DNA of 64,000 nt from the NCBI RefSeq assembly GCF_004379335.1, contig NZ_CP038013.1, positions 434,001 through 498,000 of the forward strand, read 5' to 3'. Of the stretch, positions 25,295 through 36,036 are shown one piece after another. The translations under genes were made by a program, and so were the position numbers. Under the pieces are notes generated by a model. It did no database searches, was not told the DNA's origin, and saw only the letters and a program-made list of their open reading frames with translations. This DNA comes from Spiroplasma gladiatoris. GTDB lineage: Bacteria; Bacillota_I; Bacilli_A; Mycoplasmatales; Mycoplasmataceae. Position 1 is the stretch's first letter. Each line of letters starts with the position of its first letter.

Positions 25295-26353
25295 ATGTAT
25301 AATGGAACAAGTTTATTTTCCAATGTGGGAATTGATGAACATTTTTTTAAAACAAGAAATGTAAAGATAAAAGTGGCTAACGAATTATTAGATAAAAGAG
25401 CTATGTTTTACAAACATTTATATCCTGATGTAGATGTAATAATAGGTGATATAAGAAATGATATCGTTTTTAAAACTATTATAAATAAACATGTTAAATA
25501 TAAATGTGACTTTCTGATTGCTACTCCACCTTGTCAAGGTATGTCTGTGGCAGGAAAAATGGATAAAAATGACGAGAGAAATGCTTTAATTAAATATGTT
25601 GTAAAATTTATACAAATAACAAAACCGAAAAATATTTTAATAGAAAATGTACCAGGTTTATTAAAATTTAAAATAGAAGTTAATGGCGAAAAAGTAGCAA
25701 TTAAAGATTATATAATTAACACTTTAGAATGTATGGGCTATATAGTTAATTATGGTGTTTTAGATGCCGCTGATTATGAAACGCCTCAACATAGAAAAAG
25801 AGCGATTTTTCTAATTTCTAATATTAGGAAGTGAGAATTTCCTAAACCCAAAAATAGAATAACTGTAAAAGATGTTATATATAATTTAGAAAGTATAGAG
25901 TCTGGCGAAAAAGGAAAACATAGATTTCATTATGCAAAAAAACATAATAAAAAGCACATTTTATGAATGAGTAATACGCCAACAGGCAAATCAGCACACG
26001 ATAACTTAGAACATTTTCCTATAAAGGATAATGGTGAAAAAATAAAAGGATATAAGACAACTTACAAAAGAATTGATTGAGATAAGCCTGCTCCAACAAT
26101 AACTATGGCAAATGGATCAATTTCAAGTCAAAATAATGTTCACCCAGGTAGAATAAAAAAAGATAAAACTTATTCGGATGCTAGAGTATTGACGATATTA
26201 GAACTTTTAAGGTTAACAGGGTTACCAGATGATTGAAATATACCGATCTGAGCTACCGATAATTTAATCCGAGAAGTAATCGGAGAATCATTTCCGCCTA
26301 AGTTTGCTTTATCAATGTTAAGTACAATGCCAAATGAATATGAAGATGAATAA
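25295..26353 (+). CDS. DNA C5-cytosine methyltransferase
   Basis: A 352-residue Dcm-type enzyme that transfers methyl from SAM to cytosine C5. Motif I is slightly unusual (SLFSNVGID), motif IV has the catalytic Cys80 in ATPPCQGMS, motif VI is IENVPG (Glu117), motif VIII is QHRKRAIFL. Motifs IX-X (SDARVLTILELLRLTGLP and IGESFPPKFA) close the protein. The target-recognition region is between residues about 180 and 270. Its 3' end overlaps the ATG of the next gene, an HNH endonuclease, by 8 to 14 bases, so the pair is a type II restriction-modification system. Four TGA codons are Trp. Confidence 0.92.
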
Positions 26354-27479
26354 AATTATATGACAAGCACCAGGCAATGGAAAAATATTCGATAGCAGTT
26401 TCTATGATATCAATAAGACTAATTCTTATATGACTACAAGAAGTTTTTATGTGCTTGAATTTTTTATTAAAATGGGGAAGATAAAAATTATTAAAATTAA
26501 AGATTTGGAAAAACAAATAAAAAATTATTTAATTAATAACTTTAAATCATTTAAAAAGAATGATAGCGTTGTATCACACTTCTATAAACCTTTAATTTTT
26601 TATGGTCTTTTGAAATATATTTATATTGGAAATGACAAATATATTATGCCTTCTTTTGAAGGTAGAAAATTTGTAAGTGAAATTAAAATTAATAATTCTA
26701 CTCTTGCATTAAGTTACTTTTTTAGGGCCACCATGGAAGTTATGTACCCAAACGATGCTACTCCAGATGTAAAAAATTTATATCTTTTTCCATTTAGAAT
26801 AATTTATTATTATATTTTAAAAAATGGTTTTATAACCAAAGATTTTATTGATTATAAAATAGTTTTTATAAATACTATTGCAGATATAAATAATAACATT
26901 TTTTATAATTTAAAAAATACATCAAAAAACAAAAAGTTCAGAACATGAGTTATTAACTCATTAGTCGATGTAGGAATACTAAATTTAAAAAACGACATAT
27001 ATACTTTGAATAATAATATAATAACTTTAATACAAAATGAATATGAAATGAATATCGATAAAATGTTTTTTACATGAAATGATGAAATAGAATTTTATGA
27101 TACAAAGATTATAACTAAAAATAAAGCGAGAAATCAAAAGTTAGCGAAATCTTGTATAGAGAGATCTAATTTCAAATGTGAAATTGACAATAATCATTTT
27201 ACATTTAATAGTTTATCTAATAATATGTATTTAGAATCACATCATGTTATACCTTTTTCTATGCAAAATAGAGTTGATTTTGAATTAGATGTAATTGATA
27301 ATTTAATAGCTTTATGTCCTAATTGTCACAAAGCTATGCATTATGGCGATAGCAACATAAAAACAAGTATGATAAATGCTATTTATAACTATAAAAATAA
27401 CTTTTTATACAAAAATAATATTAATTTAAATGATTTGTTATACATTTATTTAAATAATACTTATTTATATAAAAATTAG
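26346..27479 (+). CDS. HNH restriction endonuclease
   Basis: A 377-residue protein (379 if started at the in-frame ATG at 26340). The C-terminal domain is an HNH (beta-beta-alpha metal) nuclease: YLESHHVIPFSMQ with His299-His300, then DNLIALCPNCHKAMH with Cys324, Cys327 and His328. The N-terminal 270 residues resemble no domain I can name and presumably bind the DNA target. The start codon lies inside the methyltransferase gene, which fits tight coupling of the two. It should cut the site protected by the C5 enzyme. Intact in code 4. Confidence 0.88.
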
Positions 27480-30978: not shown

Positions 30979-31099
30979 GTATTTATTGATAATAAAAATA
31001 TAAATATAACAGAAATACTTTATCCTGACATAAAAGAAGAAAATTTGATACCTATTAATTATTTGATAAAGTTTGATATGAGATAAAAGGAATGATTAT

Positions 31100-32278
31100 A
31101 TGAAAAAATACATCAATGTTGAAAACATTATAAGAAGCACAGACTTAAGAACATTATGCACTGTTTATTTTAATCTGATCGAAGATGAAGATGAAAATTA
31201 TTTTGTGGTTAAGTCACATTATAAAAAATCAAAGTTTAAAACTAAATTAAACTATAACGATGACCTTCTTGAAGAAAATAATAAATTACTGATTAACTAC
31301 ACAGAATTACCGTTTTTTTTAAAAAATAGAGTACATTATTGTTATATAAAGAAAAACTTAGAATTTAATAAACTCGAATTATTAACAGCAGCCTTGTATA
31401 AAAGAATTCAAAATTTGAGAAGTTTTTATTCAACTAATGATTTTAAAATTTATGTTTTTGTTGGTCTGTTCGGATTAAGAGGAAGTGTAGATTTTTCAAG
31501 AAATTTATATGCAGTTGACTTAAAAAAGCAAGTAGCTACAGAAACATATTGTAAAAACATATTTTATCTTTTAACAAGTATTGAAGGTCTTGAACAACTA
31601 AACTTTAACTTTAGAGACCTCCAGCCAGAATACATAGGCGGTAAAAAAAGAGATGATCAAATAAGAATAAATTTAAAATATTTTTATGAAAATTTTTATA
31701 AAGAAATAAGAAAAATAAACACATATAAAGCAGATATTATTGAATTTAATAGAGATCTTTTCATAAATAAAAGTACAAGTTCTTTATTTAATAACCAGTT
31801 TATAGAAAGAATGATGTTTTATATAAAAGCCGCTTTTTCAAAAGAGTACTCTTTTGCGGATGATATTGAAAATCTACGTAAAAAACTAAACCTTGAAATT
31901 AAACCTTCACTAAAAAGAAATACCAGTATAGTTGTTTATGCCAAAGCACTTCTTCCCGATATATGTTATGGTTGTTATGAAAAATACAAAGTGATTGACA
32001 GAACTTTTTATTACAGAAATAGTGAAAATTTATACTTAGAAATTCATCATGTTATATCTTTTTCTAATGGAGAAGTTGATCAAATTGATAATCTAGTTAA
32101 ATTGTGTCCCGCTTGTCATAAAGCTCTTACACCTAATAGAGCAGATGAAAAATATCAAAAAGAAATAATTCAATCAATTTTAAAGTTAAATAAAGATGTA
32201 TGTAGATATGTTGAAAATTTTACAAGTACTTATAATATTTACAAAAATATAGATTATATTTATTCTAAACTAAAATAA
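31100..32278 (+). CDS. HNH restriction endonuclease, partner of the fused methyltransferase
   Basis: A 392-residue protein with a C-terminal HNH domain that carries a full zinc-knuckle pattern: Cys289-x2-Cys292 (CYGC), LEIHHVISFSNG with His316-His317, and DNLVKLCPACHKAL with Cys336 and Cys339. The N-terminal 280 residues have no recognised domain and probably recognise DNA. It lies 14 bases after the end of the extended frame of the preceding nuclease gene and 68 before the fused methyltransferase gene, all on one strand, so the three are likely one operon. The whole gene happens to contain no TGA codon. Confidence 0.85.
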   Translation: MKKYINVENIIRSTDLRTLCTVYFNLIEDEDENYFVVKSHYKKSKFKTKLNYNDDLLEENNKLLINYTELPFFLKNRVHYCYIKKNLEFNKLELLTAALYKRIQNLRSFYSTNDFKIYVFVGLFGLRGSVDFSRNLYAVDLKKQVATETYCKNIFYLLTSIEGLEQLNFNFRDLQPEYIGGKKRDDQIRINLKYFYENFYKEIRKINTYKADIIEFNRDLFINKSTSSLFNNQFIERMMFYIKAAFSKEYSFADDIENLRKKLNLEIKPSLKRNTSIVVYAKALLPDICYGCYEKYKVIDRTFYYRNSENLYLEIHHVISFSNGEVDQIDNLVKLCPACHKALTPNRADEKYQKEIIQSILKLNKDVCRYVENFTSTYNIYKNIDYIYSKLK

Positions 32279-32346: not shown

Positions 32347-34125
32347 TTGAAGCAATTTAAAATATTAGATCTTTTTTCAGGTGCGGGTGGATTTTCTTAT
32401 GGAATGGAAATGAATGAAAATTTTAAAACAGTTTTAGCTGTTGATATTAATAAAAATGCAATTGAAACATTTAAGAAAAATTTTCCTAGTTCAGAAGTTA
32501 TATTGGGCGACCTAACCATAGAAGAAGTAAAAGAAGAAATCGTTAATATTTGTATTGAAAAAAAAGTAAACATGATAATTGGGGGACCACCATGTCAAGG
32601 ATTTAGTTTAAAAGGAAAGAAACTTGGCTTAAATGATTCGAGAAATTTTTTGTTTTTAGAATTTTTTCATATAGTAGAAAAATTAAAACCTGAAATTATA
32701 GTTATAGAAAATGTTAAAAATATGTCTACAGCTTCAGATGGTTTTTTCATAAAACAGATTGAAAAAATGTTTTCTGATATTGGATATAACATAAATCATG
32801 GAATATTAAATTCATATAATTTTGGTGTTCCACAAATAAGAGAGAGAACCATAATAATAGGCTGTTTAAGCAAAAATATTAAATTACCCAAAGATTATAT
32901 AACAAAAAAAAACACTGTTAGAAATGCGATAAGTGACTTGAATTATTTAAAATCAGGTGAAGGAAGTTTTGAAGAAGTATATAAAAAAGAACCTGATTGT
33001 GAATTTCAAAAACAAATGAGAAAGGATTCTAAGCTATTATATAATCATCAATCTAGTAATCACTCAAAATTATCATTACATAAACTATCTTTAATACCAC
33101 CCGAAAAAGGAAAAGAATATTTACCTAACGACCTAATAGGTAAACAAAAATTTAGCACTACATGAACAAGATTGGAATGAGATAAACCAAGCCCTACAAT
33201 AGATACGAGATTTGACACCCCATCTAATGGCAAAAACTCGCATCCAATTTTAAATAGAGCTATAACTCCAAGAGAAGCTGCGAGAATTCAAAGTTTTCCA
33301 GATAATTTTATTTTTTACGGTAATAAAACAGAGGTATGTAAGCAAATAGGAAATGCTGTTCCACCATTATTGTCTAAAGCTATTGCTGATTCAATAATTA
33401 AACAAATTGATTTTGTTAAAGTTAGAGGCAGCGGATTTGAAATTTATAGGGCAGATTCATTTAATCTTATGAAAGATATGTTAAAAAAACATAAAAAATT
33501 TAATCATATTTTTACAGATCCACCTTATAACATTTCTCAGTGCAATAATTTTTCTACATTGAAAATACCAAGAAAAGGTTTAGATTTCGGGATGTGAGAT
33601 AAAGATTTCAATCTCTATGGCTGAATAAAAGATGCATCTTTATTGCTTGATAAAAATGGTTCTATAATTATTTTTTGTTCCTATAGATATATAAGTTTTA
33701 TAATAAAAGAACTTGAAAAAAATGAAATCGATGTTAAAGATGTAATTAAATGAATTAAAAAAAATCCTATGCCAAGAAACAGAGATAGAAGATATGTTCA
33801 AGACACAGAATTTGCAATTTGAGGTGTGAAAAAAGGATCTAAATGGGTATTTAATAGAAACGAATCTTCACCTTATTTAAGAGCTGAAATAAGAACTAAT
33901 CTAGTAAGTGGTAAAGAAAAAACGAAACATCCTACTCAAAAAAGTTTATCTTTATTAAAAGAGATTATAGAAATTCACACTAACAAAAATGATGTTATTT
34001 TTGACCCTTTTATGGGGAGTGGCACAACAGGTGTTGCCGCTTTAAGTCTGAGTAGAAAATTCGTAGGAATCGAGTTAGAAACAGAATATTTTGATATTGC
34101 AAGAAAAAGAATAGAAAATATATAA
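32347..34125 (+). CDS. Fused DNA methyltransferase: C5-cytosine plus beta-class amino-methyltransferase
   Basis: One 592-residue chain with two complete methyltransferases. Residues 1-350 are a Dcm-type C5 enzyme: motif I DLFSGAGG, catalytic Cys83 in GGPPCQGFS, IENVKN at 121, QIRERT at 163, and motif X QIGNAVPPLL near 332. Residues about 355-592 are a beta-class amino-methyltransferase (N6-adenine or N4-cytosine): motif IV TDPPYN at 390-395, then KHPTQK and motif I FDPFMGSGTT at 552-561. Two methylating activities of different kind in one chain suggest an asymmetric site, with each half modifying one strand. The start is TTG at 32347 after AAAGGAG; the five TGA codons are Trp. No shift or stop at the junction. 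Confidence 0.92.
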
Positions 34126-34312: not shown

Positions 34313-34870
34313 ATGGCTACTACAAAAAAAGGACCAGATAATGCAGCGGTAAAACGTGCTGCATCTAACGCAAAAAGATCTGAACACATTCAAACAAGAA
34401 AAAAAGCGAGTGACCCAAAACCAAACAAAATTCAAAACAAAGATATTAAATTAACAGAAGGTCAATCAAAATTTATTTGAGAAAAAGCAGATCCAGTTTC
34501 AGCAACAAATGCTGCTATTTATAGAAAAGATGTTGCAGGAGCTATTATTAAATTTAATCAATTTGGAATGGAATCAGAATTTGGATGAGTTAATGCTCCA
34601 ATTGATCCAGAAGGTGAATACGATGATGTTAACAACATCGTAGCATTACACTGAATGAATGCAAAAGTTAAGCGTAAAGCTGATGAACCTTGAGTTGCTC
34701 CGGTTTCAGGAATTAGAGACACAAGAGAAATTTATAACTTTATGAAAGAAATTAAAGTTCCAGGTGATGCGTTGGCAAAATCTAAAAAAACTGTTTTATT
34801 TAAACCTTCAGTTGTTGAACCTAAAAAAATTAATATTGAAATTCGTAAACAACAACCAAAACTTAAATAA
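34313..34870 (+). CDS. HNH-fold-like protein without catalytic histidine
   Basis: A 185-residue protein, interrupted by four TGA (Trp) codons. The first 50 residues are basic and Ala/Lys-rich. Residues 50-125 follow the layout of small HNH proteins: IWEKA, YRKDVAGAII, then FGMESEFGWVNAPIDPEGEYDDVNNIVALHWMNAKVK. Where such proteins have W-E-I-D-H-I-x-P, here it is WVNAPIDP, so the catalytic His is gone. I infer a DNA- or RNA-binding protein derived from an HNH nuclease. It has its own promoter and a strong terminator and is probably core rather than part of the restriction island. Confidence 0.7.
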
Positions 34871-34872
34871 AG

Positions 34873-34911
34873 AAATATCTCATTTTTAAGAGATATTTTT
34901 TTTTTTTTTTT
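34873..34911 (+). terminator. Rho-independent terminator
   Basis: AAATATCTC/GAGATATTT, 9-bp stem, loop ATTTTTAA, and a run of T to 34911. Confidence 0.9.
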
Positions 34912-34918
34912 GTTGATG

Positions 34919-34924
34919 TATAAT
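34919..34924 (+). promoter_or_regulatory. Promoter -10 of the structured element
   Basis: TATAAT placed 7 bases before the GTCC hairpin that starts the structured element. No good -35 is visible in the T-run upstream. Confidence 0.5.
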
Positions 34925-34930
34925 AAATAT

Positions 34931-35041
34931 GTCCTTCGGGACACCAAGAATATTTGTTATTCTTTAAGTTTGCATGAGTGTTTAAAACCGCTCTATAAAT
35001 TAGTATTTCCTATCTCATGCATTTTATAGCGGGTGGAAATA
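34931..35041 (+). ncRNA. Candidate structured RNA or miaA leader, class unknown
   Basis: About 110 bases, GC-richer than the surroundings, with its own -10 just upstream. GTCC-TTCG-GGAC (34931-34942) is a UUCG tetraloop hairpin. AAGAATA/TATTCTT (34946-34964) is a second hairpin. Three further stems cross each other: A, TGCATGAG with CTCATGCA (34971-34978, 35014-35021); B, CCGCT and ATAAA with TTTAT and AGCGG (34988-34999, 35023-35032); C, TATTTCC with GGAAATA (35004-35010, 35035-35041). Either a pseudoknot or alternative folds is implied. A T-rich stretch follows, so it may be a free small RNA or a leader of miaA, whose ATG is 72 bases on. It does not match SRP RNA, tmRNA, RNase P RNA or a purine riboswitch core that I know. 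Confidence 0.6.
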
Positions 35042-35112
35042 TTTTTATTTTATTTTTTAAGTTAATTAGTTCATAATCAATTTAAAAAATAAAATAAAAC
35101 AAGGGGTTTTTT

Positions 35113-36036
35113 ATGAAATCAAAAATAATTGTAATAGTTGGACCTACTGCATCAGGAAAAACAGATTTATCAATCAAATTAGCTAAAGAATTTAATGGAG
35201 AGTGCATTAATGCTGATGCCACTCAAATTTTTTGTGGAACAGATATTGCTACTAATAAAATCACAAAAGGTGAAATGGAAGGTATCAAACATCATTTACT
35301 ATCAATAAAAAAAGTAAATGAATCTTATTCTGTTGCACAATTTCAAACTGATGGAAGAAACGCAATTGATAGTATTATTAAAAAAAATAAAACTCCAATT
35401 ATAATTGGAGGAACTGGTTTATATATTAATGCTTTAATAAGAAACTATAACTTTAATAGTAATGATCATATTGAAGGATTTATAGAAAGATATAAAAATG
35501 ATACAAATCAAAAACTTTGAGATAAGTTAAATATTTTAGATCCAATTAGCGCAAGTCAGATTCACCCAAATAATCGCTATCGTATATTAAGAGCTTTAGA
35601 AATTTTTAAATTGAATGGAATAAAAAAAAGCGAGTTAATAATTGACAATAAAAACTTTTATTATGATAATATTATAATTATAGGAATAAATCCTGAAAGA
35701 AATTTATTACATAATAAAATAAATGAACGAGTATTAAAACTAGTAGATATTGGTCTTTTTGAAGAAATAAAAAATGCATGACTTGATAACAACAAAAATT
35801 CAAAAGCTCAAGCACTTAAATGTATTGGGGGACCAGAGATTATTGCTTTTTTAAACAATGAGATTGATTATAATTCAACCATAAGTTTAATGCAAAGAAA
35901 TAATCGAAGATACGCAAGAAGACAACTAACTTGGTTTAAAAATCAATTAAAAGAAACAAAGTGATTTACTCACAACTATGATGACTATCAATTAATGTGT
36001 CTAGAGATAATTAATTATATTAAACAAATTTATTAA
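35113..36036 (+). CDS. miaA: tRNA dimethylallyltransferase MiaA
   Basis: A 307-residue enzyme that prenylates A37 of tRNAs reading codons that begin with U. P-loop GPTASGKT at residues 10-17, then the substrate Asp in NADATQIFCGTDIATNK (Asp in place of the common DSMQVY block), IIGGTGLYINALI, NNRYRILRALEIF and the C-terminal RNNRRYARRQLTWFKNQ. The length is normal. RBS AAGGGG before ATG 35113. It is the first gene after the structured element. Confidence 0.96.

Follow-up and report, generated by a model that had tools for sequence, protein, structure and literature searches.

Riboswitch aptamers upstream of metabolic genes combine a compact pseudoknot, a terminator-like 3′ part and a downstream gene, and the Spiroplasma RNA described here is built likewise. 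SRP RNA (RF00169), 6S RNA, tmRNA and RNase P RNA are also small non-coding RNAs of a housekeeping type. MCS4, a small RNA of about 125 nt, has reportedly been found in Mycoplasma capricolum and is said to have been compared to U6 snRNA; it resembles the Spiroplasma RNA in size and in being a free RNA. With respect to topology, the arc pattern of three mutually crossing helices is that of the ABCABC pseudotrefoil (topology subclass 1C), which was uncommon in a survey of known structures, with 51 sequences versus 1688 for ABAB and 365 for ABACBC (PMC3390330). Pseudotrefoils are a topology class and not a homologous family; the survey does not link the Spiroplasma RNA to it, and the joint fold is one that we infer here. 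Taken as a whole, the locus is best explained as a free-standing gene for a non-coding RNA of about 117 nt that the Spiroplasma lineages inherited, next to miaA, from their ancestor, a reading to which we give a probability of roughly two in three.

The locus lies in a 64,000-nt stretch of the Spiroplasma gladiatoris genome, hereafter the window, a Mollicutes sequence whose genes are readable with TGA as tryptophan. The element itself spans positions 34930 to 35043 of the forward strand, in the order hairpin 1, hairpin 2 and then A-B-C-A′-B′-C′ (34971 to 35043). Its features and neighbors, in window coordinates, are as follows.

34313 to 34870, + strand: gene for a 185-amino-acid orphan protein upstream of the RNA, with the same clade distribution as the RNA
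about 34873 to 34911: terminator of the upstream orphan, by direct sequence reading
34919 to 34924, + strand: TATAAT, −10 box of the RNA's own putative promoter, 6 nt from hairpin 1
34930 to 34943, + strand: hairpin 1, TGTCC-TTCG-GGACA, with a UUCG tetraloop; loop and stem change in relatives
34931 to 35047, + strand: predicted free RNA of about 117 nt, a block conserved in 40 of 60 family genomes
34946 to 34964, + strand: hairpin 2, AAGAATA-TTTGT-TATTCTT; the hairpin is kept, its sequence is poorly conserved
34971 to 34978, + strand: helix A 5′ strand, UGCAUGAG; 209 of 210 cells paired
34988 to 34992, + strand: helix B 5′ strand, CCGCU; 148 of 150 cells paired
35002 to 35010, + strand: helix C 5′ strand, AGUAUUUCC; 209 of 210 cells paired
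35014 to 35021, + strand: helix A 3′ strand, CUCAUGCA; 209 of 210 cells paired, also chosen by RNAalifold
35028 to 35032, + strand: helix B 3′ strand, AGCGG; 148 of 150 cells paired
35035 to 35043, + strand: helix C 3′ strand, GGAAAUAUU; 209 of 210 cells paired
35042 to 35059, + strand: U-rich run after helix C, the likely terminator tail in the window's genus, with a T-run in relatives
35113 to 36036, + strand: miaA, encoding tRNA A37 dimethylallyltransferase, a neighbor outside the RNA (TIGR00174, 1.6e-78; PF01715, 1.9e-70)

Direct reading thus recovered the upstream terminator, the TATAAT, the UUCG-capped hairpin and the second hairpin that had been described from the letters alone. The upstream neighbor had been named as trmL; it is instead the 185-amino-acid orphan, for which we found no Pfam or NCBIfam match.

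We then compared the three putative helices among relatives. The sequence-only reading had proposed three pairs of 7 to 10 bp in the order A-B-C-A′-B′-C′, and the order holds; helix B, however, is shorter, with five contiguous pairs (CCGCT/AGCGG), and its A-U extension is not conserved within the window's genus. It had also judged chance to be an unlikely source of three such pairs, which is only moderately true when a single sequence is considered. With G-U pairs allowed, 17 of 1000 dinucleotide shuffles of the region contained a comparable crossing triple, as did 6 of 658 tiles of the window; with Watson-Crick pairs only, just 1 of 658 tiles did, and by inspection the RNA region itself satisfies this stricter rule (tile positions are given only for the G-U list). 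What settles the reality of the crossing stems is comparative evidence, which goes beyond the single sequence. The covariation in stems A, B and C that had been proposed as a check was present: both-sided changes were found in 12 of 31 pairs across 22 aligned sequences, against a shuffle mean of 3.2, and none of 500 shuffles reached the observed score. As a control, sliding the 3′ partners by 1 to 3 columns removed most of the covariation signal.

In a structure-aligned set of 30 distinct cores, A, B and C together were 99% paired. Helix A was paired in all but one of its 210 cells, with both sides changed in 30, and helix C reached the same level of pairing with 41 such cells; these counts refer to sequences, not to independent events, and the strands were located via patterns from forms already seen. 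Helix B hardly varied: it shows a single compensatory change, and in each of two copies (L108 and L246) one mismatch breaks it. The exchanges in helix A run from GCAUGAG/CUCAUGC to GUUUGGG/CCCAAGC, and those in helix C from UAUUUCC/GGAAAUA to UAACUCU/AGAGUUA or CGCUUCC/GGGGGCG. RNAalifold picked helix A with no prior information. The linkers were nearly constant, the one between the 5′ strand of C and the 3′ strand of A being 3 nt in all cores and the one between the 5′ strands of B and C being 11 nt with one exception. Hairpin 1 varied too: its stable tetraloop, UUCG in the window, can be another UUNG loop or a GNRA loop in relatives, with switches between UNCG and GNRA forms, and its stem changes from GUCC/GGAC to GUGC/GCAC; its outermost U-A pair precedes the predicted RNA start. 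By eye, hairpin 2 takes the forms ACGUU/AACGU in genus g8 and GAUUAA/UUAAUC in g6. On the strength of these sequence comparisons, the existence of the RNA, its conservation and its A and C pairings are established.

Crossing stems had been taken to imply either a pseudoknot or a choice between folds. The stems do cross and covary, and both options have points in their favor. Crossing pairs can be mutually exclusive, and single-sequence folding chooses different nested subsets among relatives, as would be expected if the three helices were alternatives in a fold switch. Yet all 30 distinct cores retain A, B and C together and their linkers hardly vary in length, which makes a choice between folds less likely than a joint fold. 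All three crossing helices are conserved, A and C as judged by covariation and B by near-invariance and its one compensatory change. In seven representatives, the summed energies of the three helices, before pseudoknot loop costs, were −24 to −30 kcal/mol, versus −12 to −20 kcal/mol for the best nested fold, and rigid A-form helices with the observed linkers could be placed without clash in a packing test that ignores chain crossing, whereas 1-nt linkers could not be placed. We regard a fold switch as unlikely. Most likely, A, B and C cross mutually and form all at once, giving the ABCABC pseudotrefoil, and this predicted joint fold is supported by the retained pairings, the energies and the packing.

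A search of Rfam 15 at gathering and E-value thresholds returned no match (best chance match, E = 1.7); no known family with another fold was found, and the RNA stays unassigned, as it had been described. Our literature search found no published description of it. None of the models for SRP RNA, 6S RNA, tmRNA and RNase P RNA matched the element in Rfam scans. SRP RNA (RF00169) was considered as an identity for the element and rejected: the element gave no match to it, and in the same genomes SRP RNA lies at a separate locus (G000:C1:8372-8459).

The RNA appears to have its own promoter. The distance from the −10 hexamer to the first base of the hairpin 1 core stem was exactly 6 nt in every copy examined but one, the exception having 7 nt (G074); at seven loci, by inspection, the 6-nt spacing was counted from a TAAAAT just before the overlapping TATAAT. 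This first base was G, with A in one locus. A 6-nt spacer with a G or A initiator is the commonest arrangement in mapped Mollicutes promoters, those of S. melliferum included (PMC5138195). No consensus −35 was found upstream of the −10 box. Since the promoter spacing is fixed, as expected of a free RNA gene, we infer with good support that the RNA is transcribed from its own promoter, and its 5′ end would be the first base of hairpin 1. The U-run behind helix C similarly places the predicted 3′ end near 35047, and the resulting length of about 117 nt agrees with the free RNA of 110 to 125 nt that had been offered as a second option.

At loci from the window's genus, g6, g7, g9 and g12, a T-run follows helix C directly. 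The 14 genomes of g8 carry a separate terminator-like hairpin after the core, the stem of which is swapped between lineages (CUAACA/UGUUAG versus GACUAAGU/ACUUAGUC); these stems were found by a looser script with no shuffle control and by eye, and they are missing from our general terminator scan because that scan demands three G-C pairs. Transcription would thus end at helix C and the U-run in the window's genus, or at the separate terminator in g8. Most g8 loci also contain a promoter-like sequence between the RNA and miaA, although such matches occur near shuffle level.

To map the distribution of the element, we used a DNA search and two covariance models (R1 and R2). All 20 genomes of the window's genus have it, and at family level it occurs in 40 of 60 genomes, from six genera (g1, g6, g7, g8, g9 and g12). 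The 20 family genomes of g2, g3, g4, g5, g10 and g11 lack it, and none of the 20 has miaA. Tentative identities are the citri-chrysopicola-mirum spiroplasmas for g8, the Apis clade for g1 and Mesoplasma for g5. Among 298 genomes of the order there was one extra match only, on a small contig of G224, and 395 genomes of the class added nothing in searches that, like all those of more than 40 genomes, used stricter filters under which weak matches can be lost. No match to the RNA turned up among the plasmids, phages and viral contigs of the collections that we searched. Several candidates were rejected: an R1 match in G063 (26.7 bits) lies inside a 704-amino-acid reading frame and lacks A and B, and weak R2 matches (≤28 bits) in the RNA-less genera were treated as chance on score alone. 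The G224 match was left out of the 40: its contig measures 4.7 kb, the genome is 85% complete and the other sampled genomes of that family have no RNA; it is probably a contaminant contig or a transfer. This diverged copy (L246, G224:C22) has a relative of the 185-amino-acid orphan upstream.

Spiroplasma is paraphyletic, with Entomoplasma, Mesoplasma and the mycoides group inside the same larger group (PMC11567158). The simplest history is that the spiroplasma ancestor had the RNA and that the lineage leading to the six genera without it lost it along with miaA. This shared loss is weak evidence of a functional link, because it is phylogenetically confounded. The distribution also bears on whether the RNA is the Spiroplasma counterpart of MCS4. 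The similar size, and a UUCG-capped 5′ hairpin and U-rich 3′ end that recall U6 snRNA, speak for such a relationship. The six RNA-less genera are believed to include the Mesoplasma and mycoides lineages, presumably those closest to M. capricolum, and their 20 genomes yielded no significant R2 match and thus no detectable homologue. A search with the U6 model (RF00026) gave sub-threshold matches only, several apparently in coding sequence. We consider kinship with MCS4 improbable.

The sequence-only reading had drawn a comparison with riboswitches and noted that miaA follows. An intact miaA lies within about 210 bp downstream of the RNA in 38 of the 40 genomes, compact pseudoknots are typical of aptamers, and in the window's genus the terminator-like helix C and U-run, with a short gap to the miaA start, fit a leader RNA. 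In such a cis-acting riboswitch or attenuator, C and the U-run would form the terminator, and a ligand or protein at A/B would decide read-through. A riboswitch, however, should always stand in cis with the gene it regulates, and two genomes depart from this. In G025, an 85% complete assembly in which no miaA was found, tRNA-Gly comes next after the RNA; in G074 it is thyA that comes next, while miaA, with no RNA upstream, lies 47 kb away behind a transposase-like gene and retains a terminator piece and promoter-like sequence. Transposase-like genes, some identical in sequence, lie near both G074 breakpoints (L247 and L248). Conversely, about 70 genomes of the order outside the family, G224 apart, have miaA with no RNA. 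These cases together argue that the RNA is independent of an adjacent miaA, and vice versa. A riboswitch would also have neither terminator nor promoter between itself and the gene; g8 has its separate terminator there, and mostly the promoter-like sequence as well, and none was seen in part of the window's genus. Unlike riboswitch aptamers, then, the Spiroplasma RNA persists where the downstream gene has been relocated or is missing, has its own terminator in g8 and matches nothing in Rfam. The riboswitch no longer stands as the main reading, and we consider it rather unlikely. In parts of the window's genus the miaA start lies only about 30 to 60 nt beyond the U-run, with no promoter visible in the gap, so the RNA may act in cis there, and read-through of its terminator probably also yields miaA transcripts.

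At one further locus (L107, G066:C1:649000-664500) the RNA-miaA segment occurs twice; one miaA is broken, and its RNA copy is kept with few changes. In the window, the stretch leading from the RNA to the miaA start contains a long AT-only palindrome (35043-35060/35082-35099); it recurs partly in L002 and L006 and is absent from most other relatives.

A pseudoknotted RNA with a promoter and terminator directly before a gene is also the layout of a type III antitoxin, or of another RNA partner of a neighboring toxin. The Spiroplasma RNA, though, is a single unit with no tandem repeats, and it is followed by miaA, tRNA-Gly, thyA or a lipoprotein-like gene, with no ToxN-like gene seen, which makes this explanation extremely improbable. 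A coding role was likewise considered. The only in-frame ATG precedes the predicted start and hairpin 2 indels shift the frames, so the element is not an ORF; because of the position of this ATG and because the frame is not kept, we rejected a leader-peptide reading.

A neighbor that shares the distribution of the RNA is the 185-amino-acid orphan, present in 37 of the 40 RNA-bearing genomes and in none of the other 20 family genomes. Its N-terminus is basic. By association only, it is a candidate partner of the RNA. By eye, its motif ending DPEGE.DDVNN.VA+HWMNAK recalls an HNH fold minus the catalytic residues, a resemblance that received no support from Pfam or from a structure model (pLDDT 39). 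Elsewhere in the window, positions 32347-34125 encode a 592-amino-acid fusion of a C5-cytosine DNA methylase and an N6/N4 DNA methylase, with an HNH-domain gene just upstream (31073-32278), and a second C5-cytosine methylase followed by an HNH-domain protein at 25295-27479 is a likely restriction-modification pair.

Returning to the free-standing RNA gene, nearly all of its conserved G and C residues lie within helices, and its conserved unpaired parts (UUUAAAA and UAUAAAU) are A/U-rich. Because the conserved G/C residues are locked in helices and the unpaired parts are A/U-rich, the RNA would act in trans by binding a protein or small molecule, and an antisense role is less likely. Our even-handed guess is that it is an undescribed, lineage-specific Spiroplasma small RNA with one joint pseudotrefoil core that acts in trans with a protein partner. 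Spiroplasma has few known small RNAs, and it is rare for a natural RNA to contain three covarying helices that all cross one another. At 117 nt, and with about 30 distinct natural variants, this one is small enough for crystallography, cryo-EM and the testing of pseudoknot prediction. Its strict conservation in spiroplasmas suggests that it has a function there.
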